From Candidatus Ozemibacter sibiricus (GTDB lineage: Bacteria; Muiribacteriota; Ozemobacteria; Ozemobacterales; Ozemobacteraceae): 64,000 nt of DNA. The notes under the pieces were generated by a model that made no database searches, was not told the origin of the DNA, and was given only the letters and a program-made list of their open reading frames with translations. Of this stretch, positions 3-61,956 are shown in pieces. The position numbers and the translations under genes were made by a program. The DNA is taken from contig QOQW01000026.1 of assembly GCA_003327425.1 (NCBI GenBank), positions 1-64,000 on the forward strand. The letters are read 5' to 3'. Within the stretch, counting starts at the first letter, position 1. The number at the start of each line of letters is the position of its first letter.

Positions 3-176
3 CAACGCTTTGCCCTCGACCTCCTGGGGAAAGCCCACCTGGCCACGATGTTCGAGATGCTCTGGCACCTGAGCCAGCAGCGACTCATGTTTCTTGGAAA
101 GGCTATCTGTACCCATGCTAGAGTGTCTTCTATGGCAAGGATTTCACCGAGGAAGAGCTGGCCGCCGGCAAGGTGA
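3..176 (+). other. 3' tail of an unidentified reading frame at the window edge
   Basis: Frame 3 is open from the window edge to a TGA at 174-176. Its first ~36 codons look protein-like (leucine, methionine, phenylalanine and histidine rich, with the stretch LATMFEMLWHLSQQ). After about position 114 it runs into sequence that, in another frame, encodes the SPFH protein downstream. The change of coding frame around 105-122 suggests a junction, for example the end of a mobile element or a rearrangement that removed the start of the SPFH gene. I do not recognise the family; a transposase C-terminus is only a guess. Confidence 0.25.
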
Positions 177-1363
177 TCGCCGAAAAAGGCGAGAAGGGCA
201 TCCAGCGCGAGGTGTTGATGCCGGGCCGGTACCGCATCAACAAATACGCCGAGGCGGTCGAGATCCATCCGGCGGTCGAGGTGCCGGCCGGGTTCGTCGG
301 GGTGGTCACCTGGTTCGGGGGCACCACGCGCGCGCTGGCTTCGCCGGCCGCCGATCCCCAACCCGAGCTGGAGGGCAAGGCCGCCGAGTTCCTGGTCGAG
401 GCCGGTCGCAAGGGGGTGTCGCGCGAGGTGCTGACCCCCGGCGTGCATTACCTGAATCCCTACCTGTGCCGTGTGACCTTGATGGATTGCCGCTCCCAGC
501 GGTTCGAGCTGACGGGCAACGATGCCTTGCGGTTCCCCTCGAGCGATGCCTTCGAGATGACCGTGCTGATGACCGTGGAGTGGGCCATCGATCCGGCTCG
601 CGCTCCTGAGATCTTCGTCCGCATCGGCGAACTCGATCCGGCCCACGAGAAGAACGAGATCCTGCAGAAAGTGGTCATTCCGGCCATTCGTGGCTACGGC
701 CGCATCGAGGGGTCGAAGTATACGGCCCTCGATTACATTTCCGGCAACTCGCGGCAGGCCTTCCAGAATGCCCTGTTCGAGAAGATCCGCGCCACCTGTG
801 GGCCCAAGGGCATCCTGATCAAATCGGTGCTGATCAACGACATCGAGCCGCCCCAGGAGATCGCCACGCCGATCCGTGAACGCGAGATCGCCAAGGAAGA
901 GTTGAACCGCAACAAGAACCAGTTGCTGCAGGCGCAGGCCGAGCAATCGCTGGCGCGTTCCGAGGAGATGGTCAAACTCGAGCGGGAGCGGGTGGCGGCC
1001 AGCACCCAGAACAAGGTCAAGATCATCGATGCCACCAACAAGCAGAAGGTGGCGCTGATCAACCAGGAGCGGCGCCTGCAGATGGAAGCCACGCTGCTCG
1101 AAGCCGCCCGCCGCGAGGCTGAGGCGATCCTGTCGCGGGGCCGGGCCGAGGCCGACGTCGTGCTGCTGGCAGCGACCGCCGAGGCCGAGGCCATCAAGAA
1201 ATCGATCGAGGCCTTCAAGACGGCCGAGAACTACGCCTACTTCGAGTTCGTCAGCCGGATCGCCCCGGCCATGCAGTCGATCTTCGCCAACACCGAGGGC
1301 GTCTTCGGCCGGATCTTCCAGAACATCGTCGCCCCCCGCCGGGACGAGAAGGGAGGCAACTGA
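173..1363 (+). CDS. SPFH/band-7 domain protein, 5'-truncated
   Basis: Flotillin/stomatin-type protein of 396 residues from a GTG. It has an N-terminal SPFH beta domain, then a long charged coiled coil (about residues 225-340, Glu/Ala/Arg rich), then a short hydrophobic end. The paralogue directly downstream begins with a transmembrane anchor, and this copy lacks it. Homology to the paralogue extends upstream of the GTG to about position 125 (residues YGKDFTEEELAAGK align with the partner's TGRDLPPGQ region), but an in-frame TAG at 119-121 closes the frame and no ATG or Shine-Dalgarno site is visible. The gene has therefore probably lost its 5' end and may be non-functional, or may be translated from a weak internal start. 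SPFH proteins usually scaffold membrane microdomains. It is followed after one base by the second SPFH gene. Confidence 0.8.
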   Translation: MIAEKGEKGIQREVLMPGRYRINKYAEAVEIHPAVEVPAGFVGVVTWFGGTTRALASPAADPQPELEGKAAEFLVEAGRKGVSREVLTPGVHYLNPYLCRVTLMDCRSQRFELTGNDALRFPSSDAFEMTVLMTVEWAIDPARAPEIFVRIGELDPAHEKNEILQKVVIPAIRGYGRIEGSKYTALDYISGNSRQAFQNALFEKIRATCGPKGILIKSVLINDIEPPQEIATPIREREIAKEELNRNKNQLLQAQAEQSLARSEEMVKLERERVAASTQNKVKIIDATNKQKVALINQERRLQMEATLLEAARREAEAILSRGRAEADVVLLAATAEAEAIKKSIEAFKTAENYAYFEFVSRIAPAMQSIFANTEGVFGRIFQNIVAPRRDEKGGN

Positions 1364-1364
1364 G

Positions 1365-2936
1365 ATGATCAACCGCTACCTGCTGGCCATGGCGGGCGTG
1401 GCCCTGCTCGCCATCGCGATCTTCTTCTCGGCGTTCTACCACACCTTCTTCATCTACGTGCCGGCCGAGCGCATGCTGATCATCATCAGCAAGACCGGCC
1501 GCGACCTGCCCCCCGGCCAGATCATCGCCACCGAGCCCGGGCAGAAGGGCATCCAGCTCGCGGTCTATGGGGAAGGGCGGCATTTCGTGCTGCCGTATTT
1601 CTACGAGACGCGGCTGGAAAAGATCGTCACCATCCCGCCCCGCAAGGTCGGGGTGGTCACTTCGCTGGTGGGGAAGGAGCCGCCCCCCGGCGCCGTGCTG
1701 GTCAACACCGATGAGAAGGGGGTCTGGCGGAAGGTGCTGCCGCCTGGCAAGTATCGGCTCAATCCCTATGCCTACAAGATCGAGATCCATCCGGCGGTCG
1801 AGATCAATCCGGGCTATGTCGGCTGCGTGACCTCCCTGGTGGGCAAACCGCCGAAAGGGCGGTTCGCCCAGCCCGGCGAAAAGGGCATCCTGCAGCAGAT
1901 CCTGCAACCCGGGCTCTACTACCTGAACCCGCTCGAGTACCGGGTGCAGGAAGTCGAGATCGGCATCAACCAGGTCAGTTTCACCGAGGCCAATCAGATC
2001 CGCTTCCCATCGAAAGATGCCTTCAGCATCGCCATCGAGGCGACGGTCGAATGGGAACTGCTGCCGCAGCATGTCGCTCAGGTCATTAGCGAATTCGGCG
2101 GCAAGGAGGCGATCGAGGAGAAGGTGATCATTCCGCAGAGCAAGTCGATCGGGCGGATCCAGGGGTCCAGCTATGGGGCCAAGGAGTTCCTGCTCGGCAC
2201 CGAGCGCGAGAAGTTCCAGACCACCTTCACCCAGGAGCTGGAGAAGGTCTGCGAGGCCAAGAAGATCACCATCCACAGCGCGTTCATCCGGCAGTTGAGC
2301 ATTCCCGACAACCTGCTGCTGCCCATTCGCGAGGCCTTCATCGCGGTCGAGAAGGAAAAAACGGCCAAGTTCTGGGAAGAGACGCGGAAGTCGGCTTCAG
2401 AACTGGAGCGCGAGCGTGCCCTGATCACGCAGCGCCGGGCCGAGGTCAAGGCCGAGACCAGCGCCATCGTCAATACGATCGCCGCGCAGACCGAGCAGGA
2501 AGTCGGCCGCATCGAGGCCGAGACGCAGCTCGAGGTCGCCAAGAAAGAGCAGGAGATCGCCGCCATCGAGGCCAGCAAGACGGTGCTGCTGGGCGAGGCG
2601 CGGGCCACGGTGACCCGGTTGCGCGGCGAGGCCCGTTCGAAAGGCCTGGAGCTGAAGATCCGCGCCTTCGGCGACAATCCGCGGGCCTATGCCAACTACA
2701 TGTTCGCGCGGGAACTCCCGCCCAACCTGCAGCTGCGACTGATCTACTCCGGCCCTGGCACGCTCTGGACCGACCTGGGCAAGACCGGCGGCCTGGACGG
2801 CCTGACCCGGCTCCGCTCGCTGCAGCGGGAGGCCGGCGCGGCGACCGAGGCCGCGGCCGGCGGCCAGGAGGTACCGACCGGGGCCGATGGGGCCAGCGGG
2901 GCCGCCGAGGGGGCGGCCGGAGCCCCCGCGCGGTGA
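1365..2936 (+). CDS. SPFH/band-7 domain membrane protein
   Basis: 523-residue flotillin-like protein. An N-terminal membrane anchor (about residues 5-30) is followed by tandem beta-rich segments of SPFH character. Then come a long Glu/Ala/Arg coiled coil (about 325-430), a C-terminal segment resembling the end of flotillins, and a Gly/Ala/Glu-rich tail. The ATG lies one base after the stop of the truncated paralogue, so the two were probably co-transcribed. Proteins of this family oligomerise on the inner membrane and organise proteases or lipid domains. No NfeD-type partner is next to it, which would be the usual companion. The Ala/Gly tail is rich in GC codons and may be disordered. Confidence 0.88.
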   Translation: MINRYLLAMAGVALLAIAIFFSAFYHTFFIYVPAERMLIIISKTGRDLPPGQIIATEPGQKGIQLAVYGEGRHFVLPYFYETRLEKIVTIPPRKVGVVTSLVGKEPPPGAVLVNTDEKGVWRKVLPPGKYRLNPYAYKIEIHPAVEINPGYVGCVTSLVGKPPKGRFAQPGEKGILQQILQPGLYYLNPLEYRVQEVEIGINQVSFTEANQIRFPSKDAFSIAIEATVEWELLPQHVAQVISEFGGKEAIEEKVIIPQSKSIGRIQGSSYGAKEFLLGTEREKFQTTFTQELEKVCEAKKITIHSAFIRQLSIPDNLLLPIREAFIAVEKEKTAKFWEETRKSASELERERALITQRRAEVKAETSAIVNTIAAQTEQEVGRIEAETQLEVAKKEQEIAAIEASKTVLLGEARATVTRLRGEARSKGLELKIRAFGDNPRAYANYMFARELPPNLQLRLIYSGPGTLWTDLGKTGGLDGLTRLRSLQREAGAATEAAAGGQEVPTGADGASGAAEGAAGAPAR

Positions 2937-5188: not shown

Positions 5189-5980
5189 TCACTGCGCCTG
5201 GCGGTCGGGCGGGGGCGGGGCGGTGGCGGCGGGGGCCTCGTCGCTCTCGGCCGCCGCGGGGGCGGTGGTGGTGCGAGGGCCGGTCCGGCGATCGACGGTC
5301 TCGTACATGCTGTCGAAGGCTTTGATTTCGGTCATCAAGCGGTCGACCTCGTCGCTCTGGTAGGCGATGCCTTCGGCGAAACGCATCTCGTCGAGTTCGA
5401 GGCGCAGGCGGGTGTTCTTGAAATGGCCGGCCAGCACCGCCTTGCTGTCTTCGTAGCGGCGGAGGAATTCCTGGAGCTCATCGAGATGAGCGAGGGTCTC
5501 GCGGGAGTCGGCCAGCGTTTTTTCGAGAAATCGGCGTTTCTCGGGATCATGAGTATCTTTGAACTGTCGCTCGAGGTCGCGCAGCCGTTCACGCAGGCGG
5601 TGGGGCGGTTCCTGGGCGAGGTATTCCTGGAACCGCTCGGCGCGGTCGCGGGCGGCCAGCAGATGCTTCATGCTGGCTTCGACCACGGCCCGATACGATG
5701 ACAGACGAAGCCGTCGCAGCAGGGCGACGAGCTTCTCGTATTCAGGGACGACGGCCCAGACATCGCGGTACTTATACTGGCGCCAGAGGTACCATAGCAG
5801 CGGAGCCAGTACCAGCAGCAGGAACAGCATGGGGAAGAATAAACGCAGGAAGCGGCGCAGCATGAACAACACCACCACGCCCAGCAGGGCGAGCAGCAGC
5901 GCCCACGGGATCTCGCCGCGGCGGGACGGGCGGCGGCCCGTTGGCAGAGCGGGCGGGCGGGTGAGGGGAGGTCTGGCCAT
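5189..5980 (-). CDS. Hypothetical membrane protein with coiled coil
   Basis: About 263 residues from an ATG at 5980, which has GGAG ten bases upstream; an in-frame ATG at 6016 lacks such a site. An Arg/Pro-rich N-terminus is followed by two adjacent hydrophobic helices (about residues 24-66). The rest is a long, strongly charged helical region with coiled-coil character (about 80-230) and an Ala/Pro-rich tail. I do not recognise a family. The architecture suggests an inner-membrane protein with a cytoplasmic coiled coil. It is convergent with the symporter gene and sits in tandem with the gene upstream at 6064-6933. Confidence 0.72.
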   Translation of the reverse strand: MARPPLTRPPALPTGRRPSRRGEIPWALLLALLGVVVLFMLRRFLRLFFPMLFLLLVLAPLLWYLWRQYKYRDVWAVVPEYEKLVALLRRLRLSSYRAVVEASMKHLLAARDRAERFQEYLAQEPPHRLRERLRDLERQFKDTHDPEKRRFLEKTLADSRETLAHLDELQEFLRRYEDSKAVLAGHFKNTRLRLELDEMRFAEGIAYQSDEVDRLMTEIKAFDSMYETVDRRTGPRTTTAPAAAESDEAPAATAPPPPDRQAQ

Positions 5981-6063
5981 GGTCGAAGGGCTCCGCGTCA
6001 GACGAAGCACCACCATTATAGCATGGCGGACCGGAACGCGAGGCGGGACCGGAAGAAGGCCGG

Positions 6064-6933
6064 TCAGTCGTGGGCGACGGCGTCCTCGAAGGAGGCGTAT
6101 TCGTCGGAATCGGGCACGAAGACCGGGTAGACCACGAGCCGATTCTTGCGCCGATGGACCTCGGAATCGTAGTGCTGCTTGATCGTCTTCCAGTCGGACA
6201 GGGCGAGCAGGTCGCGCACCAGATTGAGGATGCGGACGTGGTCATAGAGGTTGAAGACGGGGAACTCGACGGTCAGCAGATCGATGGGGGCCGCGCACTC
6301 CGAGAATCGGCGGGTCCAGCTCTGGCGGAAATGGGCTTCGGAATCGCAGGAGTTGAGCATGATGATGCGGTATTCCGGCGGGAAGCGGGTGGCGTCGAGG
6401 TCTTCGGAGGTCGCGTGGTAGTAGCGGTAGGGGGTTTCGTGGCGGTCTTCGATCAATTCCCCGTTGCCGGAGCGGAAGATGTCGTCCTTGTCGGAGAAGG
6501 CCATGCCGCCGCCGTAGCGGGCGTGCCCCGAATAGATGACGACGTCGATGGTGGGGTCTTCGAGGGCGTCTTTGAACAGGGCCTTGGCGTTGGGCGTGAC
6601 CGAGGTGAAGACCCCCAGTTCGATGCGGGCGGCCCGCCCGTTGAAATAGACCGTCTTGCCATTGAGCATCTCGAAGGCCGGGAAGACGGCCTCGATGGTC
6701 TCGCGGGGATGGTCCCATCCCCAGAACAGGGCGATGCGCAGGACGCCGTCGGCGAACATCCGTTCGTACCAGGGGCGGCCCTTGGGCACGTAGTTGGCAT
6801 GGGTACGTTTGGGCTCTTTGCGAGCCGGCGTGGGGGCGGCGGTTCTCTTCTTGGCGCCGTTGAGGAAGATGACGAGCAGGACGGCAGCCAGCAGGAAGAC
6901 CAGGCGACGGGACTGGCGGTTGCGATAATACAT
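6064..6933 (-). CDS. Membrane-anchored protein with caspase-like His/Cys motifs
   Basis: 289 residues from the ATG at 6933. A single N-terminal hydrophobic anchor (about residues 10-26) precedes a Lys/Arg/Pro-rich linker and a globular domain. Two elements stand out: a hydrophobic strand ending in YSGHARYGGG with His137, and a second hydrophobic strand ending in MLNSC with Cys196. A strand followed by (S)GH and, about 60 residues later, a strand followed by xxC is the arrangement of clan CD cysteine peptidases (caspase, gingipain, CHAT). The rest does not match a family I know, so peptidase activity is inference. It is divergently transcribed from the TlpA-like gene. Confidence 0.68.
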   Translation of the reverse strand: MYYRNRQSRRLVFLLAAVLLVIFLNGAKKRTAAPTPARKEPKRTHANYVPKGRPWYERMFADGVLRIALFWGWDHPRETIEAVFPAFEMLNGKTVYFNGRAARIELGVFTSVTPNAKALFKDALEDPTIDVVIYSGHARYGGGMAFSDKDDIFRSGNGELIEDRHETPYRYYHATSEDLDATRFPPEYRIIMLNSCDSEAHFRQSWTRRFSECAAPIDLLTVEFPVFNLYDHVRILNLVRDLLALSDWKTIKQHYDSEVHRRKNRLVVYPVFVPDSDEYASFEDAVAHD

Positions 6934-27458: not shown

Positions 27459-28472
27459 ATGCAGAAGAGGAAGCTGGTTTCCGCTCTGATCGCCCTGGTA
27501 CTGCTGTTGTCCACCGGAACGCTGGGGTACCGGATCATCGAAGGCCCGGAATGGACGCTCCTCGATGGGTTGTTCATGACGGTCATCACGTTGGCCACGG
27601 TCGGGTTCAGCGAGACGCACCCGCTTTCTCCCCAGGGAAGGATGTTCACCATCGTGTTGATCTTCCTGGGCGCCGGCCTGATGGCCTATCTGGTGACGAC
27701 GCTGGCGCAGTTCGTGGTCGAAGGAGGCTTGCGAGACCTGCTCGGGAGGCGACGCATGAGGGAACGCATCAAGTCCTTGCATCATCACTACATCGTCTGC
27801 GGCGCCGGCGACACGGGGTGGGTGGTGGCCGATTACCTCCGCCGGCATCAGGCCCCGGTGGTCCTGGTCGATATCGAGCCCAAGACGGTTCAGAGCTTGA
27901 TCGACGAAGGGTTCATCGCCCTCGAAGGGGATGCCACCGCCGATGAGATCCTGGTCGAAGCCGGCTTGGAGCGGGCGGCCGGGTTGGTGGCCGCGCTGCC
28001 GCACGATGCCGACAATGTGTTCGTGGCGCTGACCGCCAAGGGGATCAACCCGCAGGTCTTCGTGGTGTCGACGGCGACCAAGATCGAGTCGGTGTCGAAG
28101 CTGAAGCGGGCCGGAGTGAATTACGTGGTCTCGCCGAACATCACGGCCGCCAATCGCATGGCGTCGGTGCTGATGCGACCGTCGGTGGTCGATTTCCTCG
28201 ATGCCACCCTGGCCGGGGATGATTCCGACCTGCAGATGGATGAGTTCCGCATCCAGCCGGGGTCGGCCCTCGACAATGTCGCCTTGAAGGATGCCGACCT
28301 GCGGCGGCGGTCGGGGGCGATCATCGTCTCGGTCAAGCGGCAGGGGAAGACCGTGATCAACCCGGAACCCACCCATGTCTTCGCCGGTGGGGACATCCTG
28401 GTCGTGATGGGCAATCGCGAGCAGATCAACAAGATGGGCGAGCTGGCCACCGTGGCCGTGGCCCGAGGCTGA
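27459..28472 (+). CDS. Potassium channel with TrkA-N/TrkA-C regulatory domains
   Basis: 337 residues. Two membrane helices (about 7-25 and 61-82) flank a pore loop with selectivity filter TVGF at 47-50 and the outer sequence SETHP in place of the common GYGD. A cytoplasmic RCK/TrkA-N domain (about 108-225) follows, with the Rossmann motif GAGDTG at 115-120 and acidic VLVDIEP. A TrkA-C domain covers about 240-330. This is the MthK-like layout: a two-helix channel gated by ligand binding to RCK domains. GF occurs in place of GY in some K+ channels, but SE after it is less usual. The gene lies 15 bases upstream of the 1930-residue protein gene. Confidence 0.9.
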   Translation: MQKRKLVSALIALVLLLSTGTLGYRIIEGPEWTLLDGLFMTVITLATVGFSETHPLSPQGRMFTIVLIFLGAGLMAYLVTTLAQFVVEGGLRDLLGRRRMRERIKSLHHHYIVCGAGDTGWVVADYLRRHQAPVVLVDIEPKTVQSLIDEGFIALEGDATADEILVEAGLERAAGLVAALPHDADNVFVALTAKGINPQVFVVSTATKIESVSKLKRAGVNYVVSPNITAANRMASVLMRPSVVDFLDATLAGDDSDLQMDEFRIQPGSALDNVALKDADLRRRSGAIIVSVKRQGKTVINPEPTHVFAGGDILVVMGNREQINKMGELATVAVARG

Positions 28473-28487
28473 ATCAGGAGGAGGAAG

Positions 28488-31400
28488 ATGAACGCACGCA
28501 GGGAGCCGCATGGAGGAGAGGGCCGACGTTCGGGCACGACGGGATCCCGCCGGCGAGCGTGGTTCGCCTGGACGCCGGGGTGGCTGCGGCTGGCGATCGT
28601 GCTCATGCTGGTCGGCGCGGCGTGGCGGCCGGCGCTCGGCCAGGAGCGCTCCGCCGCGCCTCCGTCGCCGACGCCATCGCCGGCGACGCCGCCGGTCGTG
28701 CGCACCCTCAAGACGCTCATTCCCTTCACCGAGGTGTCGAAGGTTCTGCAGGACACGGGCCGTCGCTACCTGATGCTGCCGTTCGAAGAGTTCGAACGGC
28801 TGCGGGCGGCCAAGGAGGCGGCGCTGGCCTCGGCGGCGGCGCCCGCTCCCGAAGCGCCGCCGATGGGCTACCGTCTGGTCTCGGCGCGCCTCGAAGGGAC
28901 CCTGGAAGGGACCTTCGTCCGGATGCAGGCCGAATTCAAGCTCGAGAGCTTCCTCGACGACTGGCAGGTGCTCGAGGTGCTGCGCGGACCGCTGGTCATC
29001 GAAGGGGCCACGCTCGACGGCCAGCCGGTCTCGCTGCTGGCCGGGTGGCTGCGGGATGCGGCGCCGCGCCGGCTCGAGTTCGGGCGGGCCAGTCGGGCCG
29101 CCTCTGGCCAGATCTTCCCGGGCACGCGGCTCGGCGCCGAGCTCCTGGGCCAGGACCTGTGGCGGGAAGCCCGGTTCCAGCTGCCCTTCCTGGGGAAGGG
29201 CCTGCACACCGCCAAGATCTCCTTCGTGGCGCCGGTGGAGAAGCGCGAAGATCGGCATGTTCTCGATTTCGTGCTGGCCCCGGTGCCGTTGACCTTCGTG
29301 CAGATCACCTCGCCCGAGCAGGTGTGGTCGGTCGAAGAGACGACCTTCCGCGACTGGACCGTGGAGACCCCCGAAGGGGCCGGCGCTCGCGGTTGCACCT
29401 TCGTGGGCTGGCTGGGCGCCGAGCCCTCCCTGCGCGTGACCTGGCGCCGGCGGGCCCGTCGCCTGATCGACGACGAGCCGGTGCCGACGCCGGCCCCCGT
29501 TCCCGGGCCGGCGACCGGCGCCGCTCCGGTGGCCAGCGCGCCGGCGCCCGCCCCGGTGGTCAAGCCGGTCAAGGCCCCGCCCCGGCCGCTGGTCTACGCC
29601 CGCACCGAGACGCTGATCACGTTGGGCGAAGCGGCGCTGCAAGGGCGTCTCGACATCGAATACTCGATCACCAAGGCGCCGGTGGCGAGCTTCGCCATCC
29701 AGCTCCCCTCGTACGTCGAGGTGCTCGAGGTCACTTCCGATCGTCCGCAGACCTATCAGGTGGTGCGCGAAGGGGAACGCAAGCGGCTCATCGTCGACTT
29801 CCTGGCCGCGCGCGAGGATTTCTGCCCGCTGACCGTCACCTTCGAGGCGAAGATGGATGAAACCCTGGGCACCTACCACCTGCCCGATGTGCATCCGATC
29901 GGGGTGGAACGGGAGCTCGGCACCCTGGCCCTGCAGGCCCTGACCAGCGTCGAGGTGCAGCCTACTGTGGCGATGGACAAGAACCCGCCCCCCCACCTGG
30001 TGCGCATCGACGCGGTGGAATTGCCCGAAACCTTGAAACGGCGGGCGTTCCGGCCGATCCTGCTGGCCTATCGGCTGTCCGGCCGACCCGCGGCGCCCGA
30101 GATCCAGGTCAAGCGCTATGAGGATCTGCCGCTGCAGACGGTGGTGGCCGACCAGATGGACGTCAAGACCTCGTTCACCACCAACGGCAGCAGCCAGACG
30201 CAGGTCACCCTGCGCATCCGCAACAACAACAAGCAGTATCTGACCTTGCAACTGGCCTCGGGCACCGAGGTGATGAGCGCCCTGCGCGACGATCAACCGA
30301 TCAAGCTGGTGGCGGGCCGCGGCGATGGGCGAGTCCAGGTGCCGCTCAAGATGAGCCGCAATCTGGGGCGTCCCGAAGAGATGGAGCTGAAGGTGCTGGT
30401 CAAGAATGCCGTCGCCAGCATGTCCTGGATGGGCGAGCATCGGTTCGAGGCCCCGCTGGTCGACGTGCCGGTCTCGCATTTCTCCTGGAGCCTGTTTGCG
30501 CCGTCGCAGTATACGCTGTTCCATTTCACCGGCACGGTCAATCCGCCCGAACCGCCGCGCGACCCGTTCCTGTTCCGCGGGTTCCTGGCCCTGTATGATC
30601 TGAGCCTGGTGCTGTTGTTCGACCCGAACCTGCTGATGGGGGTCATCTTCCTGCTCGTGCTCATGCTGCTCGTGGTGTCGCGCCATTTCCTGGTGTGGAT
30701 GATCAAAGGCCTCTGGACCCTGGTGACCGAGGGCATCATGTTCATCTTCACCGGCCGCGGCTTCCGCCTGGCGGAGTTGATGATCGTGCTCGCCGTCGTG
30801 GCCTTCTTGGGGGCCATGGCCATCCCCAACTTCCGCAAGGCTCGCGAGCAGGCCCGCACCAAAGCCTGCTATGCCAATCAGCGGGTGCTGCAGGGCGCGG
30901 TCGAGATGTACAACATGGACCATGGCGACCACATGATGACCAGGCTCGATATCAAGGCGCTGCGGCAAGGCCAGTATCTGAAGAGCGATATCGCCAGTCC
31001 GTATCCGCAATGCCGCTACGAAACGGCTGGCGATCTGTCGGGCTCCGGCTTCATCTACTGCACCTTCTGCGGCGGGGTCGAGCGCAGTCTCGAGGAGATC
31101 CAGGCCATGGGCGGGACGCCGGTCGCCCAGGAGCGGTATGCCGCAGCGAGGAACGAGATGGAGCAGGGGGCCCGAGCGGGGGGCGGCGGGCCGGCGAAAG
31201 CCACGGGGTACGGCCAGCCCGGGGCGCCGCCTCCACCGTTCGTGGGCGGGCGCGCCCGCGGCACTTTGCCGATCGAAGCCCGGTTCGTGCTCACTCCCAA
31301 CTTCTGGACGGTCCGGCGCGATCTGGTGCTGGCCGATGTGGCCACCGACGGCACGCTCCTGCCCAACTCGACCTCCCCGCGGGTGGCGGTGCGCTACATG

Positions 31401-34280
31401 CGCTGGGAGATCGTGCAGGGCCTGAAGATCGCGTCCTTCCTGCTCGGTCTGCTGGCCGGGCTCTATTTCATCGGGGCGGCCTTCCACCAATATCTGCCGA
31501 AACTGCTGGCCTCGGGGATCATCCTCACCATCCTCCTCCTTTGGGACAAACTCTACCCGCCCGCCGGCGATGCGGCCAACCTGGGCCTGTGGCTGGCCCT
31601 GATCGGCGGGGTCTTCTGGAAGATCGGCTGGGCGCTTTCCCTGCAGGATTGGAGCTTCGGCGGCAAGGAAAACGATGACGGACCACGCGGCTCGGGCGGG
31701 CCGGGTGGCGGCGCGGGCGGCGGCCGGAACGGACCGCCGCGGCGACCGGCCCCGCGTCCTGCGGTGGCGGGCATCAATTTCGATGACCGGGTGGTCACCG
31801 AGCCCTTGCCCGACGAGGAGGCGGAGGACGATCCGGCCCCGGCCCGCCGCGAGGCGGGGACGCCCACCGCGCGGGCGAGCCGTCTGGGCACGGCGGTGAC
31901 GGTGGGGCTGACGCTGCTGCTGGCGGGCACGCTGGCCACGGCGGCGGCGGGGGCCACCCCGGCCGCTCCGGCCACCCAGGAGATCCGGATCATGGTGCCG
32001 TTCACCGACCTGGCGTCGGTGATGGGGCCGCTCGAGAAGATGGTGCTGATCAGCGAGGACGACTATCGCGCGCTGCAGACCATCGCTTCGACTCCGGAGA
32101 CGCCGCCGGTGCGGCCGCCGGCCGGCTATTCGATCCGGCAGGCGGTCTATCGCGGCACGGTCGGGGAACGCGGCGTGCGGTTCCAGGGCCGGTTCGAGAT
32201 CGACCTGTGGGAGGACGGCTGGAAGACGGTGCCGCTGCTGTCGGCGGCGGTGGTGCCGTCCCAGGCCCGCTGCGACGGGCAGCCGACCCCGCTCGACCTG
32301 ATCCGGGGGGCCGGGCCGTCCGACAGTTCCTATGGGTTGGTGATCAACGGCACCGGCTCGCGCGTGCTGGAGGTGGAATTCTTCCTGCCGCTGGCGGGGA
32401 CCGAGTTCAACACCCGGCGCATCGATTTCCCGACGGTGCCGCTCTGCCAGTCGCGGCTCGAGATCACGGTGCCCGAGGCCGACTGCGATGCCTGGCTCGA
32501 TCCCGGCGTGCTGCGCGTGGTGGCGTCGGGGCCGCAGGGCACGACCTTCCAGGCGCTGCTGCCGCCGACGCCGCGGGTCCGGCTCGAACTGGTGCGGCGC
32601 GTGACGGCGCCGGCGGCGCCGGTGAGCGAGGAACCCCCGCCCGAGGAGGCGCCGGCGCCGGCCAGCGCGCCCGCGCCGGCGGCGGCGCCCGTGGTGGTCA
32701 AGGAAGAGACCCGGGTAGTCGTCCAGGAGCGGAACCTGCTGGTCTTCGAAGAGGGGTTCGTGCGGGGGCGCAACCACTATACGCTGACCGTCACCGGATC
32801 GGATGGGATCAGCAGCTTCTCGCTGCGGGTGCCGTCCGGGGTGCGGGTGCTGAAAGTCGAAGCTCGCACCATCGATGACTGGAAGGTCGAGGAGCCGACC
32901 GGGCCGACCGGCGGCCGGCGGCTGACCATCGCGTTCGCCTCGGTGGTGCGAGGGCAGCTCTCCTTCACCGTCGATTTCGAAGAAGACGTGCCGACCGCCG
33001 CGGCCGAGGCCTACCAGGTTCCCGAACTGATCCCCTTGATGGTGGATCGCAGCCAGGGCCTGCTGGCGGTGGGCTGCCTGCCGGCCTTGGAGCTGGGAGT
33101 GCCCGAGAGCCCGGTGGGGTATACGCCCATCGATGTCGGCGAGTTCCTGCGCGACTTCCAGGGGCAGCCGCCCGAGAAACTGCCGTTCGCCTTCAAGTTC
33201 CTCAAGCACCCCAACAAGCTGGTGGTCGCGGTGTCGCGTCCCAAAGACATCGAGCAGGCGACCGCGGTCGTCGACAAGGCCGAGGCGATGACGCTGGTCA
33301 ACGAAGATGGGTTCATTTTGACGCGCATGGCCTTCGAGGTGCGGAACAACTCCGAGCAGTTCCTGAAGCTGCGTCTGCCCGAGATGCCGGGCGCGGCCTC
33401 GGCCACGCTGTGGAGCAGCGAGGTGGCCGACCAGGCGGTCAAGGCGGGCTACGATCGCGAGCAGGGCGTCTACAATGTACCGATCATCCGGTCGCCGCTG
33501 GTGAACGGTCAGTCGCAGCCGTTCCCGGTCGAAGTGATCTTCGCGCAGCGGCTGCCGGAGGGGTTGCGGTCGTTCATGCCGTTGCAGCTGGCGCTGCCCC
33601 GGCTCCATCTCGACATCAGCGAATTGAGCTGGGTGGTCTATCTGCCCGAGAGCTACGAGCTGATGCGCGGGCAGGGCAATGTCGATCGTTTGATGGAGCG
33701 CCCGTTGCAGCCGCTGCTGGAGGGGCAGAAACGGTTCCCGGGCCTCGATCTGGGCGCCCTGCTGACCACGCGCTCGCAAGCCGCGCTGGGCGGCGATACC
33801 GGCGGGGCCGGCATCGTCGGCCTGCTGCCGGTGGAGTTCCGCATTCCGACGACCGGGTGGTCGACGGCCTTCGTCATGCAGCAGATCGACCCGCGGGGCG
33901 AACCGCCGCGCGTGTCGGGCGTGCTGGTCAGTCCGCGCTCGGGCCGGGGCCAGGTCTTCCAGGTGCTGATGATCCTGTGTGGCGCGCTGGCGGGCATCGC
34001 CCTGGTCTGGTTCGGCACCGGGCCGCGCCGGTTCCTGTGGTTCGTGGTGGTGGCCGCCATGTCGGGCCTCCTGGGGTTCACGTTGGTGATGAAGCTCTAT
34101 CAGGCCGACCATTCGTTCAAGATGGGCTTTTTGACCACGTTCGTGACCCTGATCCTCTTCTACCTCTACCGCTGGAATCCGGCGGCGACGATGGCAGCCG
34201 CGGCCGCTGCGGCCACCCCGCCGAAGGCACCGTCCTCGCCGGATGCGCCTGCCTCGCCGGCCACGCCGGGGGCCGAGTAA
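28488..34280 (+). CDS. Giant two-module membrane protein with internal prepilin-like segment
   Basis: 1930 residues in one uninterrupted frame, with AGGAGGAAG before the ATG. A signal segment lies at about 28-45. Module 1 spans about 70-700: beta-rich with Pro/Ala linkers, starting TLIPFTEVS, and with NNNKQYLTLQL near its end. Membrane helices lie at about 705-730. A prepilin-type N-terminus then follows: G758, F759, E763 in GFRLAELMIV plus a hydrophobic helix, followed by a pilin-like stretch with four cysteines (to about 875). More helices lie at about 980-1060, with a second signal-like helix at 1130-1155. Module 2 spans about 1165-1810: MVPFTDLAS start, NNSEQFLKLRL near its end. Two or more terminal helices finish the protein. 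The modules look homologous. Function unknown. Confidence 0.85.
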   Translation: MNARREPHGGEGRRSGTTGSRRRAWFAWTPGWLRLAIVLMLVGAAWRPALGQERSAAPPSPTPSPATPPVVRTLKTLIPFTEVSKVLQDTGRRYLMLPFEEFERLRAAKEAALASAAAPAPEAPPMGYRLVSARLEGTLEGTFVRMQAEFKLESFLDDWQVLEVLRGPLVIEGATLDGQPVSLLAGWLRDAAPRRLEFGRASRAASGQIFPGTRLGAELLGQDLWREARFQLPFLGKGLHTAKISFVAPVEKREDRHVLDFVLAPVPLTFVQITSPEQVWSVEETTFRDWTVETPEGAGARGCTFVGWLGAEPSLRVTWRRRARRLIDDEPVPTPAPVPGPATGAAPVASAPAPAPVVKPVKAPPRPLVYARTETLITLGEAALQGRLDIEYSITKAPVASFAIQLPSYVEVLEVTSDRPQTYQVVREGERKRLIVDFLAAREDFCPLTVTFEAKMDETLGTYHLPDVHPIGVERELGTLALQALTSVEVQPTVAMDKNPPPHLVRIDAVELPETLKRRAFRPILLAYRLSGRPAAPEIQVKRYEDLPLQTVVADQMDVKTSFTTNGSSQTQVTLRIRNNNKQYLTLQLASGTEVMSALRDDQPIKLVAGRGDGRVQVPLKMSRNLGRPEEMELKVLVKNAVASMSWMGEHRFEAPLVDVPVSHFSWSLFAPSQYTLFHFTGTVNPPEPPRDPFLFRGFLALYDLSLVLLFDPNLLMGVIFLLVLMLLVVSRHFLVWMIKGLWTLVTEGIMFIFTGRGFRLAELMIVLAVVAFLGAMAIPNFRKAREQARTKACYANQRVLQGAVEMYNMDHGDHMMTRLDIKALRQGQYLKSDIASPYPQCRYETAGDLSGSGFIYCTFCGGVERSLEEIQAMGGTPVAQERYAAARNEMEQGARAGGGGPAKATGYGQPGAPPPPFVGGRARGTLPIEARFVLTPNFWTVRRDLVLADVATDGTLLPNSTSPRVAVRYMRWEIVQGLKIASFLLGLLAGLYFIGAAFHQYLPKLLASGIILTILLLWDKLYPPAGDAANLGLWLALIGGVFWKIGWALSLQDWSFGGKENDDGPRGSGGPGGGAGGGRNGPPRRPAPRPAVAGINFDDRVVTEPLPDEEAEDDPAPARREAGTPTARASRLGTAVTVGLTLLLAGTLATAAAGATPAAPATQEIRIMVPFTDLASVMGPLEKMVLISEDDYRALQTIASTPETPPVRPPAGYSIRQAVYRGTVGERGVRFQGRFEIDLWEDGWKTVPLLSAAVVPSQARCDGQPTPLDLIRGAGPSDSSYGLVINGTGSRVLEVEFFLPLAGTEFNTRRIDFPTVPLCQSRLEITVPEADCDAWLDPGVLRVVASGPQGTTFQALLPPTPRVRLELVRRVTAPAAPVSEEPPPEEAPAPASAPAPAAAPVVVKEETRVVVQERNLLVFEEGFVRGRNHYTLTVTGSDGISSFSLRVPSGVRVLKVEARTIDDWKVEEPTGPTGGRRLTIAFASVVRGQLSFTVDFEEDVPTAAAEAYQVPELIPLMVDRSQGLLAVGCLPALELGVPESPVGYTPIDVGEFLRDFQGQPPEKLPFAFKFLKHPNKLVVAVSRPKDIEQATAVVDKAEAMTLVNEDGFILTRMAFEVRNNSEQFLKLRLPEMPGAASATLWSSEVADQAVKAGYDREQGVYNVPIIRSPLVNGQSQPFPVEVIFAQRLPEGLRSFMPLQLALPRLHLDISELSWVVYLPESYELMRGQGNVDRLMERPLQPLLEGQKRFPGLDLGALLTTRSQAALGGDTGGAGIVGLLPVEFRIPTTGWSTAFVMQQIDPRGEPPRVSGVLVSPRSGRGQVFQVLMILCGALAGIALVWFGTGPRRFLWFVVVAAMSGLLGFTLVMKLYQADHSFKMGFLTTFVTLILFYLYRWNPAATMAAAAAAATPPKAPSSPDAPASPATPGAE

Positions 34281-34295
34281 GGAGCGACCAGCAGG

Positions 34296-35087
34296 ATGGA
34301 CGAGCCCTTCCCCTTCCCTGACGTTCCGGCCGTGCCGCCGTCGCCCGCGCCGCCGCCTCTCGGCGGCGGCCGGGACGGAGCGGGCCCTGACGTTCGGGGA
34401 GGGAGGGCGCCGACGGAGAAGCTGCCGCTCGGCGGCATGGGCCTGCCCTTGATCCTGTTCGTGCTCTCGGTCTGGTTCTGGCACAGCCCCCTCGTCTATC
34501 CGATCAAGATCCTGACCGTCTTCTTCCATGAGCTGTCGCATGGGCTGGCGGCGGTGGCGACAGGAGGGCGCATGCATGCGATCGAGCTGACGGCCGATCA
34601 GGGCGGTCTGTGCTGGACCGCCGGCGGCATCACCTGGATCATCCTGTCGGCCGGCTATCTGGGCAGCCTGCTGTGGGGGTCGGGCCTGCTCTGGCTGGCG
34701 GCCAAGACCCGCTGGGATCGCGAGATCGTCCAGGGGCTGGGGCTGCTGCTGATCGGGGTGACGGCGGTCTATGTCCGGACCTGGTTCGGCCTCGCCTTCG
34801 GCCTGGGGTTCGGTCTGGCCCTGCTGGCCCTGGCCCGCCATTTCGGCGCGGTCGTCTGCGACCAGTTCCTGCGCTACATCGGCCTGACTTCGAGTTTCTA
34901 CGTGATCCTTGACATCAAGTCCGACCTGATCGATCGAAGTATTCCTCAATCCGATGCCTTCCGGCTCGGGGAGATGATCCACCTGCCGGGGTGGGTGGTC
35001 GGAGTCGGCTGGATGGTGGTCGCCATCTGGCTGACCGTGCGTGTGCTCGAATCGACCATGACGTCGGACCCGGGGAGCCGGGTCTGA
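34296..35087 (+). CDS. M50B-family membrane metalloprotease
   Basis: 263 residues. A Pro/Gly-rich cytosolic N-terminus (about 1-45) is followed by at least six membrane helices. The zinc motif is HELSH at 78-82 inside a helix, as in the M50B-like proteins (PF13398 type). These relatives of site-2 protease cut substrates within the membrane, although activity in this subgroup is little tested. Encoded 15 bases after the 1930-residue protein, which has many membrane helices and could be its substrate or partner; that is only inference. Confidence 0.87.
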   Translation: MDEPFPFPDVPAVPPSPAPPPLGGGRDGAGPDVRGGRAPTEKLPLGGMGLPLILFVLSVWFWHSPLVYPIKILTVFFHELSHGLAAVATGGRMHAIELTADQGGLCWTAGGITWIILSAGYLGSLLWGSGLLWLAAKTRWDREIVQGLGLLLIGVTAVYVRTWFGLAFGLGFGLALLALARHFGAVVCDQFLRYIGLTSSFYVILDIKSDLIDRSIPQSDAFRLGEMIHLPGWVVGVGWMVVAIWLTVRVLESTMTSDPGSRV

Positions 35088-60306: not shown

Positions 60307-61956
60307 ATGGCGAACGAAGGCATCACGCGGCCGTCCGGCGCCGCCACGGATCTGGAGAGACGGGTCGACTACCTCGAAGGCTTGCTGCGCCTGGGCGAAG
60401 ACATCGATCATTTGATCGAAGGCTGTCTGAAAAGTCAGAAAGATCTGGCCTCGACGCTCGAAGCGGTGTTCGATTTCCTGGAAGAGCGACTGGCTCCTGC
60501 CGCCATCTTCCTCTTCACGCAGAACGAGGATCTCCGCCCGACATTCTATGGTCGTCGCCTCACCGAGGAAGCGTTGACCCGGCAGGTGCCCCAGGCCCTG
60601 TCGGTGACCGCCCGTCTCCAGCAGACCGTCGATGATCGAGCATGGTTCATCATGCCCCTCGACATGGCCGGCGATCCCATCGGGGCGTTCGGTCTGGCCT
60701 TCCCTGCCGCCAGCGCTCCTGCTCCCGACGCGGTGTTCCGGCAGATGGATCTGGTGGCCGAAGAGCTCGACAATTACTTCTTCGGCATCCAGGAAAGCCG
60801 GTACAAGCACATGAACATCATGGAGATCCAGCGGTGCCTGAAGGCGCGCAGCCTCAGCGAGGCCATCGATACTGCCGTCTCCATCCTGGCCGATGTGGTC
60901 CCGATGGAAGAGTTCGTGCTGCTCTACCTCGACGAGGATCTGGCCGGCGCGAAAGTCGTGCAATATCTCGTCTACCGCGGGTTCAAGAAGGAGTTCGATT
61001 CGATCGAACGGCCGCTGCCCGAACTCGACGCCCTCATCAAACGCGGGGTCGATGTGGTGCGGCCCGGGAACCGCGACCTGGAGGCGATCTTCCCGGCCAG
61101 CGCGATGACCGAGACCATTCTGCTCGACGGGCTGGTCGAAGAGACCCTCGTCGGCAAGCTCATGATCAAGCCGCCCAGCCATATCGGCCTGTCGATCGCC
61201 AGTCGGGAGATGATCCAGGTCTTCGCCGAGGCCCTGCGTCAGCGTCTCGTCGATTTCAACCGCGAGAAGAACATGCTGCGGCAGTTCTTCCCCGCCGATG
61301 TCATCCGGCGGATGATGCGCGAACCGAATTACCGCACCAAGTACCTGTCGCCGCGCAAGGCCGACATCGGCATCCTGTTCGCCGATGTCAGCGGGTTCAC
61401 CAAGCTCAGCGAGCAGGTGCTGCGCGACCCGGCCCGCATCGCTCGCTTCATCGACGGCTGGTCGAGCGGCGGCACCGAGCGGTTCTTCCCCCTGGGCGGC
61501 ACGCTCGACAAGCTGGTCGGCGACTGCCTGATCGCCCTGTTCGGGCCGCCCTTCTACGACAAGTCGCCGGCCCAGATCGCCCTCGACACGCTGCGGTCGG
61601 CCGTGGCCATCCGCTCCTTCACCCGGGAATACCTGGCCTCCCCCGCGAATGCCGATATTCAGGCCTCGCCTTTCTACCGTGATTTCGGAGTGGCGATCGG
61701 CTTGAACTACTGCTCGGCCGACGTCGGCCTGATCGGGCCCAATCAAGATCTGACCGCCTTCAGCAGCGGCATGAACAACACCGCCCGGCTGCAGGGGCTG
61801 GCCAAGGTCGACGAGATCCTGGTCTTCCCGCCCATCAAGGATCTCGTCCAGGCCGCCGAGCCCGGGCGATGGGAATTCGCCGGCCCTTTCACCGCCTCCG
61901 TCAAGAACGTGGCCGAGCCGATCTCCTACTTCAAGCTGGTCGGGGAACCGCGCTGA
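60307..61956 (+). CDS. GAF-domain adenylate/guanylate cyclase
   Basis: 549 residues from the ATG at 60307 (AAAGGGGAA upstream). A short coiled-coil start precedes two GAF-like domains (about 30-190 and 200-335). A class III nucleotide cyclase domain follows at about 345-545. Metal aspartates are D360 (ILFADVSGFT) and D406 (VGDCLIALFG). GMNNTARLQGLA matches the usual VNxAARLQ region. There is no membrane segment, so it is a cytoplasmic sensor with small-molecule or redox input through GAF. Whether it makes cAMP or cGMP is uncertain, since the base-specifying residues cannot be assigned by eye. Confidence 0.9.
   Translation: MANEGITRPSGAATDLERRVDYLEGLLRLGEDIDHLIEGCLKSQKDLASTLEAVFDFLEERLAPAAIFLFTQNEDLRPTFYGRRLTEEALTRQVPQALSVTARLQQTVDDRAWFIMPLDMAGDPIGAFGLAFPAASAPAPDAVFRQMDLVAEELDNYFFGIQESRYKHMNIMEIQRCLKARSLSEAIDTAVSILADVVPMEEFVLLYLDEDLAGAKVVQYLVYRGFKKEFDSIERPLPELDALIKRGVDVVRPGNRDLEAIFPASAMTETILLDGLVEETLVGKLMIKPPSHIGLSIASREMIQVFAEALRQRLVDFNREKNMLRQFFPADVIRRMMREPNYRTKYLSPRKADIGILFADVSGFTKLSEQVLRDPARIARFIDGWSSGGTERFFPLGGTLDKLVGDCLIALFGPPFYDKSPAQIALDTLRSAVAIRSFTREYLASPANADIQASPFYRDFGVAIGLNYCSADVGLIGPNQDLTAFSSGMNNTARLQGLAKVDEILVFPPIKDLVQAAEPGRWEFAGPFTASVKNVAEPISYFKLVGEPR

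Follow-up and report, generated by a model that had tools for sequence, protein, structure and literature searches.

A membrane-tethered protein with a predicted clan CD fold, probably a cysteine peptidase, conserved in the Ozemobacteraceae

The gene at positions 6064–6933 (minus strand) of the window, the stretch of 64,000 nucleotides from Candidatus Ozemibacter sibiricus (contig QOQW01000026.1) that we analysed, encodes a protein of predicted caspase fold that we interpret, with a probability of roughly two in three, as a single-pass membrane-tethered cysteine endopeptidase of the clan CD fold, belonging to an orphan family that is near-universal and single-copy in the Ozemobacteraceae. The Ozemobacteraceae are an uncultured group of the phylum Riflebacteria. 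Peptidase activity is probable, judging from the predicted fold and an invariant His/Cys dyad, and the protein would then probably be a protein-cutting enzyme peculiar to the Ozemobacteraceae. It would extend the caspase/separase/gingipain fold by a family not recognised before, in a phylum where enzymes of this kind already abound, and, if active, it would provide a small, soluble-domain model of the separase/CHAT-like protease core.

The gene and its distribution

Translation of the minus strand gave 289 residues followed by a stop codon, and the 5.7 Mb genome to which the gene belongs holds one copy of it. A protein search of 95 genomes yielded a match in 21 of them (its own genome counted), at one place each, and these 21 homologues were aligned; the other 20 are 53–93% identical to the window protein. 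Comparison with the closest relative over 288 codons revealed 68 synonymous and 20 non-synonymous differences, with 78 of the 101 base differences falling at third positions. The 21 aligned members and the mostly synonymous codon differences show that this ORF is a real gene, and that it is under purifying selection.

A profile built from the 21 members detected the gene, always as a single copy, in 21 of the 24 Ozemobacteraceae genomes, in none of 15 genomes from other Riflebacteria families and in none of 342 genomes from outside the phylum, and no match was found in plasmid records. We therefore consider it to be a lineage-specific core gene. The three Ozemobacteraceae genomes without it are G008 (64% complete), G016 (84% complete) and G012 (95% complete). 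The last of these also lacks orthologues of the genes for an M50B-like metalloprotease, a HAMP protein and a small membrane protein described below, which suggests that a whole block is missing or that the assembly has a gap. At six loci from other Riflebacteria families (L156–L161), the next gene downstream of HAMP, inspected over its first 110 residues, did not encode an SGH/NxC protein.

This near-universal, strongly conserved and single-copy occurrence throughout the family points to a housekeeping function rather than to defence or cell death. A role in defence and an origin as a mobile or accessory element were both considered and dropped, given the lineage-wide single-copy spread and the PADLOC searches, in which no defence family scored below E 0.01 (best value 0.013, in one member).

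The His137/Cys196 dyad and the predicted fold

The preliminary description of this DNA had drawn attention to a histidine in the motif SGHARYGGG (His137) and, 59 residues further on, a cysteine in NSC (Cys196), each following a hydrophobic strand. Translation bears this out: His137 (codon 6525–6523, minus strand) lies within IDVVIYSGHARYGGGM and Cys196 (codon 6348–6346, minus strand) within YRIIMLNSCDSEAHF, where the local motif is LNSCDS, and a hydrophobic stretch directly precedes each. As phrased there, the pattern is weak when taken alone. When the protein was shuffled 5000 times, a loose version (hydrophobic run and His, 25–75 residues, hydrophobic run and Cys) turned up in 595 of the shuffles, and 19 of the 132 neighbouring ORFs that are at least 200 aa long also have it; a stricter version, with GH[GA] after the first hydrophobic run and C after the second, turned up in none of the 5000 shuffles and in four of the 132 ORFs. 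The clan CD reading is decided by the invariance of the two residues and by the predicted fold, and not by the bare His/Cys pattern.

Conservation of the dyad among homologues had been proposed as a check, and both residues are retained in all 21 aligned members, Cys196 being the only invariant cysteine. In the alignment, 75 of the 289 positions are invariant, so the invariance of the dyad is, by itself, weak evidence for catalysis. Every homologue belongs to a single bacterial family. The invariant positions of the core are concentrated in the loops following strands β1–β5, which hold 29 of 68 such positions in 55 of 212 residues (p = 1.8e-4, for loops picked after the model and the alignment had been seen).

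Two structures were predicted with AlphaFold, one for the window protein from the alignment (model 1: mean pLDDT 77.7, pTM 0.75) and one for a homologue 59% identical to it (model 2: pLDDT 77.8, pTM 0.77); they are not independent, because both were built from the same 21 sequences. Model 1 comprises β1 (64–71), α1 (77–90), a hairpin strand (94–97), β2 (100–109), α2 (116–125), β3 (131–135), two short strands (160–163 and 170–173), α3 (177–180), β4 (189–196), α4 (201–212), β5 (217–223), α5 (228–243 and 248–256) and β6 (265–269), and model 2 has the same order of elements. In both, His137 lies just past β3 and Cys196 at the end of β4, in the positions of a predicted general base and a predicted nucleophile, respectively. 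In the caspase core, according to an excerpt of PMC4357240, the catalytic His and Cys stand at the ends of β3 and β4, and a small sheet is inserted between β3 and α3. The clan CD core order, β1-α1-β2-α2-β3-α3-β4 with His after β3 and Cys after β4, is found along the chain in the two models. The caspase-like fold anticipated in the preliminary description was thus recovered as a caspase-haemoglobinase arrangement, both in the models of two members and in the structure comparison given below, and there is good support for a predicted domain of this fold at residues 61–272 (6118–6753, minus strand), with His and Cys in the catalytic places.

The surroundings of the dyad leave some room for a caspase-fold protein devoid of peptidase activity, serving in binding or as a scaffold and keeping the dyad for, e.g., ligand binding. 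Clan CD peptidases have a glycine adjoining the catalytic His (PMC4357240, excerpt), as in PmC11, where His133 is followed by Gly134 (PMC4850288, excerpt). In the present family, the residue after the His is Ala in 16 of the 21 members, including the window protein, and Gly in the other five, and the residue before it is Gly in all 21. The substitution at His+1, the poor modelling of the loop after the His (pLDDT below 50 at residues 139–145 in model 1) and the many invariant positions besides the dyad are compatible with a non-catalytic role. However, the dyad is invariant in 21/21 members, no other cysteine is, and invariance gathers at the catalytic edge, and we regard such a role as unlikely.

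If the protein is a cysteine endopeptidase, as we prefer, Cys196 would attack the scissile carbonyl, with His137 acting as the base, and the S1 pocket would be formed by the loops after β1, β4 and β5. The clan-wide S1 pocket consists of the loop or helix after β1, the Cys loop and the loop after β5, which carries a conserved aromatic residue (PMC4357240, excerpt). By analogy, the loop after β5 (residues 223–231, EFPVFNLYD; 6241–6267, minus strand) is predicted to form a wall of this pocket; Glu223, Pro225, Val226, Asn228 and Asp231 are invariant in it, and position 227 is aromatic (Phe/Tyr) in 21/21 members. According to the excerpted text of PMC4850288, PmC11 probably relies on Asn50, Asp177 (two residues before its Cys) and Asp207 (28 residues past it). 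The corresponding places are occupied here by Asp74, which is near-invariant (Glu in one member), by Asn194, and by Glu223 (27 residues past Cys196) together with Asp231, with Phe/Tyr at 227. The Asp conserved two residues before the Cys in PmC11 and C11 peptidases (PMC4850288, excerpt) is thus replaced, Asn194 being present in all 21 members. A basic P1 residue is the commonest preference in the clan (PMC4357240, section 17, excerpt), and it is also, by analogy, our best guess for this protein, because the acidic residues Asp74, Glu223 and Asp231 stand at places corresponding to the PmC11 residues; the invariant Glu223 and/or Asp231, together with Asp74, would favour such a residue.

Relationships with known clan CD families

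Searches of Pfam, NCBIfam, PHROGs and PADLOC with the protein or with all 21 members gave no convincing family match. Weak matches were scattered over differing families, with one to five members each (the best E value in each library lies between 0.0035 and 0.013), and the curated Pfam models PF00656 (C14), PF12770 (CHAT), PF03415 (C11) and PF01364 (C25) matched none of the 21 members. A sequence search against the PDB returned a single chance match (E 0.55), and no separase appeared among the matches up to E 10. The sequence had been called otherwise unfamiliar from the start, and none of these libraries recognises it. The titles and opening lines of abstracts listed by searches of the open-licence literature on the Ozemobacteraceae, the Riflebacteria, bacterial clan CD and membrane-anchored caspase-like proteases made no mention of the family. 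Many unknown families of Riflebacteria have been reported in FESNov (PMC10849945, excerpt).

In profile–profile comparisons, the strongest match was with the C14 proteins (PF00656) of Riflebacteria (probability 29.8, E 5.6e-4, 21 columns; reversed profile 0.6), and it runs across the catalytic-cysteine motif, aligning YRIIMLNSCDSEAHFR with VNIVILDACRNNPFAR. The C14 set comprised 10 of 20 loci, after removal of edge-cut and weak ones. The same stretch was aligned with C25 at a probability of 1.8 (reversed control 1.1; 19 of 20 loci, an edge-cut one dropped), and CHAT (6 of 6 loci) and C11 (19 of 20 loci, one with an internal stop dropped) each gave 0.1; reversed and shuffled control profiles reached at most 1.1. 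Established clan CD families scored only 0.2 to 0.7 against one another in this test, and the lack of a profile match is therefore uninformative. Despite the C14 match, the family differs from C14 peptidases in having Ala rather than Gly after the His in 16/21 members and Asn rather than Asp two residues before the Cys.

Foldseek searches of the PDB returned DdvA, SAVED-CHAT and caspase-1 as the best matches for model 1 (E about 3e-4), and SAVED-CHAT (1.3e-5) followed by DdvA and caspase-1 for model 2, with modest TM-scores by query length (0.33–0.43). Matches to viral models included caspase-like proteins. A second-look aligner, applied to chains already ranked by Foldseek, ordered the matches to model 1 as separase (Z 11.3, rmsd 3.1, 172 residues aligned), SAVED-CHAT (Z 11.1, rmsd 3.3, 178 residues), then DdvA, the TPR-CHAT/Csx29 chains (Z about 7.4–9.4), legumain (Z 7.9), caspases (caspase-7 also Z 7.9) and C11 peptidases. 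For model 2, it gave separase (Z 10.9, rmsd 3.0, 165 residues), SAVED-CHAT (Z 10.9, rmsd 3.3, 172 residues), gingipain K (Z 8.9, rmsd 3.2, 177 residues) and a metacaspase (Z 8.3, rmsd 3.9, 180 residues), and the list also contained DdvA, TPR-CHAT, caspases, legumain and MALT1. The top Z values exceed 7 to 8, the range typical of this tool for models without a clear match.

Flavodoxin-like proteins and small GTPases appeared lower down in the Foldseek lists, and these, together with the lack of sequence family matches, might suggest another doubly wound α/β enzyme, akin to flavodoxins or hydrolases, where convergence brought His and Cys to their places past strands. However, 48 of the 50 rows in each second-look list, drawn from the Foldseek-ranked chains, were clan CD or CHAT proteins by title (the other two being DdvA), and the caspase core is fitted both by the order of the elements and by the pair of short strands that separates His from Cys. 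We therefore consider convergence in such an enzyme to be highly improbable.

The separase (C50) catalytic domain is among the best matches for both models, but separases are giant, multi-domain proteins with a large helical region before the protease, whereas the window protein consists of a single domain and a membrane helix. The CHAT proteases (SAVED-CHAT, TPR-CHAT/Craspase and Csx29) match it with Z values of about 7–11, yet it has neither a PF12770 match nor a SAVED or TPR part. C11 and C25 (gingipain) peptidases belong to the same clan, and C11 and gingipain K are among the structure matches, but the C11 proteins inspected carry signal peptides (by eye), whereas the anchor of the window protein appears to be uncleaved. 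The best reading is that of a new orphan family with a clan CD fold, outside all the families tested.

The membrane anchor and the gene neighbourhood

The membrane anchor proposed in the preliminary description is upheld. The protein has a single hydrophobic segment, at about residues 11–29, lying within a helix that spans residues 4–29 in model 1 (6847–6924, minus strand), with basic flanks on both sides and, by eye, no AxA-type cleavage site. A short basic N-tail followed by a hydrophobic core resembles a signal peptide, and the product could accordingly be imagined as a soluble exported protease from which signal peptidase removes the N-terminal segment. Against this, the AxA site is lacking, the helix ends in L-N-G-A/L-T-G-M with Leu24 and Gly26 invariant, and ordinary cleavage sites are seen (by eye) in C11 and C14 proteins from this group. 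Such a secreted form seems to us improbable. The basic helix suggests instead a tethered enzyme with a membrane or envelope substrate: it would hold the protein at the inner membrane, and the task there would be to cleave a membrane or envelope protein at specific sites, not to degrade protein in bulk.

The charges flanking the helix conflict as to the side of the membrane on which the domain lies, and the periplasmic orientation put forward in the preliminary description is no more than a possibility. With the N-terminal amine counted, the N-tail is the more positive flank in 13 of the 21 members and the other flank in seven, with one tie, so the flank charge rule places the C-terminal domain outside in 13, inside in seven and leaves one tied. 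Several members carry a charge of +6 to +8 right after the helix, which argues against export of the domain. The same description had called an anchored caspase-like protease in the periplasm unusual, which was overstated: bacterial metacaspases whose N-terminal membrane helix is predicted to run from inside to outside are tabulated (Table 1 of PMC4933709, excerpt), and the genome from which the window comes has eight C11, three C25 and two C14 matches. All of the C11 (four) and C14 (two) proteins inspected begin with signal peptides, as judged by eye. Export of clan CD proteins is commonplace in Riflebacteria, which makes the setting less odd than had been held. Clan CD peptidases abound in the phylum: of 35 Riflebacteria genomes searched, 34 have C11 matches and 34 have C25 matches, with up to 24 C11 places in a single genome.

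Immediately downstream of the gene, at 5189–6016 (minus strand), lies a gene for a 275-aa protein with an N-terminal hydrophobic segment and no Pfam match; tblastn with this 275-aa protein found it at both same-genus loci and at none of the other 17 among the 19 loci searched. With the window proteins as queries, no neighbourhood seemed to be conserved outside the genus, a view that was refuted by clustering all ORFs. The clustered neighbours at the 19 loci comprise lspA, two lgt genes, rluD (the label given to a pseudouridine synthase), a small membrane protein and a HAMP protein, followed by the gene studied here; lspA, lgt, the pseudouridine synthase and HAMP were named by family match. This is the older arrangement. 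The pair of genes for the HAMP and small proteins is also present in further families of Riflebacteria that do not have the gene, which therefore joined, or stayed in, a pre-existing locus. The two adjacent lgt (prolipoprotein diacylglyceryl transferase) genes beside lspA and the pseudouridine synthase gene differ from one another, at L060 (8849–10416, minus strand) and at related loci in several genera.

A second set of neighbours is seen at loci L169 and L170, where the gene is followed by those for a TrkA channel, a giant protein, an M50B protease and a cyclase, with other ORFs intervening in L170. In the window, the first three of these form a block at 27459–35087, on the opposite strand and some 20 kb from the gene. 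The block consists of a TrkA-type potassium channel (27459–28472, plus strand), relatives of which adjoin homologues of our gene in other genera, a giant protein of 1930 aa with no Pfam match (28488–34280, plus strand), relatives of which lie near the homologue in several genera, and an M50B-like membrane metalloprotease (PF13398; 34296–35087, plus strand), relatives of which are adjacent to it in three genera. At four loci of genus g11 (4 genomes), the M50B gene neighbours the homologue at a distance of 14 to 49 bases; in g5 (2 genomes), it adjoins it on the opposite strand; and in G010, it converges with it at a distance of about 200 bases. The two genes are on one contig in 13 of the 18 genomes holding both.

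This proximity raises the possibility of a site-1-like protease, in which the caspase-fold protein would cut a membrane substrate and M50B would then cut the remnant within the membrane. This is a special case of the tethered endopeptidase that we favour and is compatible with it. However, the proximity could also reflect the common descent of a gene block, and the two genes do not always occur together: three genomes (G011, G004 and G021) have the gene with no M50B detected, and G008 and G016 have M50B without it. We consider this division of labour to be quite improbable. Should both proteases act in succession on one envelope substrate, the process would amount to regulated intramembrane proteolysis with a caspase-type first cut; the genes that such a scheme would draw on lie near one another (both proteases, the lipoprotein-maturation genes, HAMP, the potassium channel, the giant pilin-like protein and the cyclase), and we offer it as a very doubtful proposal. 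Taken more broadly, the neighbours in relatives (lspA-lgt-lgt-rluD, HAMP, TrkA, the giant pilin-like protein and M50B) suggest a role in envelope processing for the tethered endopeptidase, and they provide a testable hypothesis of such a role.

Three further features of the window were observed. The giant protein contains, by eye, a type IV pilin-like segment GFRLAELMIVLAVVAFLGAMAIPNFRKAREQ in its middle, between large repeated regions, and a cut by prepilin peptidase at this segment, if it occurs, would split the protein; according to our reading of the match list, relatives are present in 18 of the 24 Ozemobacteraceae genomes. At 60361–61944 (plus strand), 25 kb from M50B, the window encodes a protein homologous to the cyclase found after M50B in other genera; its Pfam cyclase score (21.1) is just below the cut-off (21.9). 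Finally, two neighbouring ORFs at 173–2936 (plus strand), of 396 and 523 aa, appear by eye to be SPFH/flotillin-like, and they match each other in tblastn searches.
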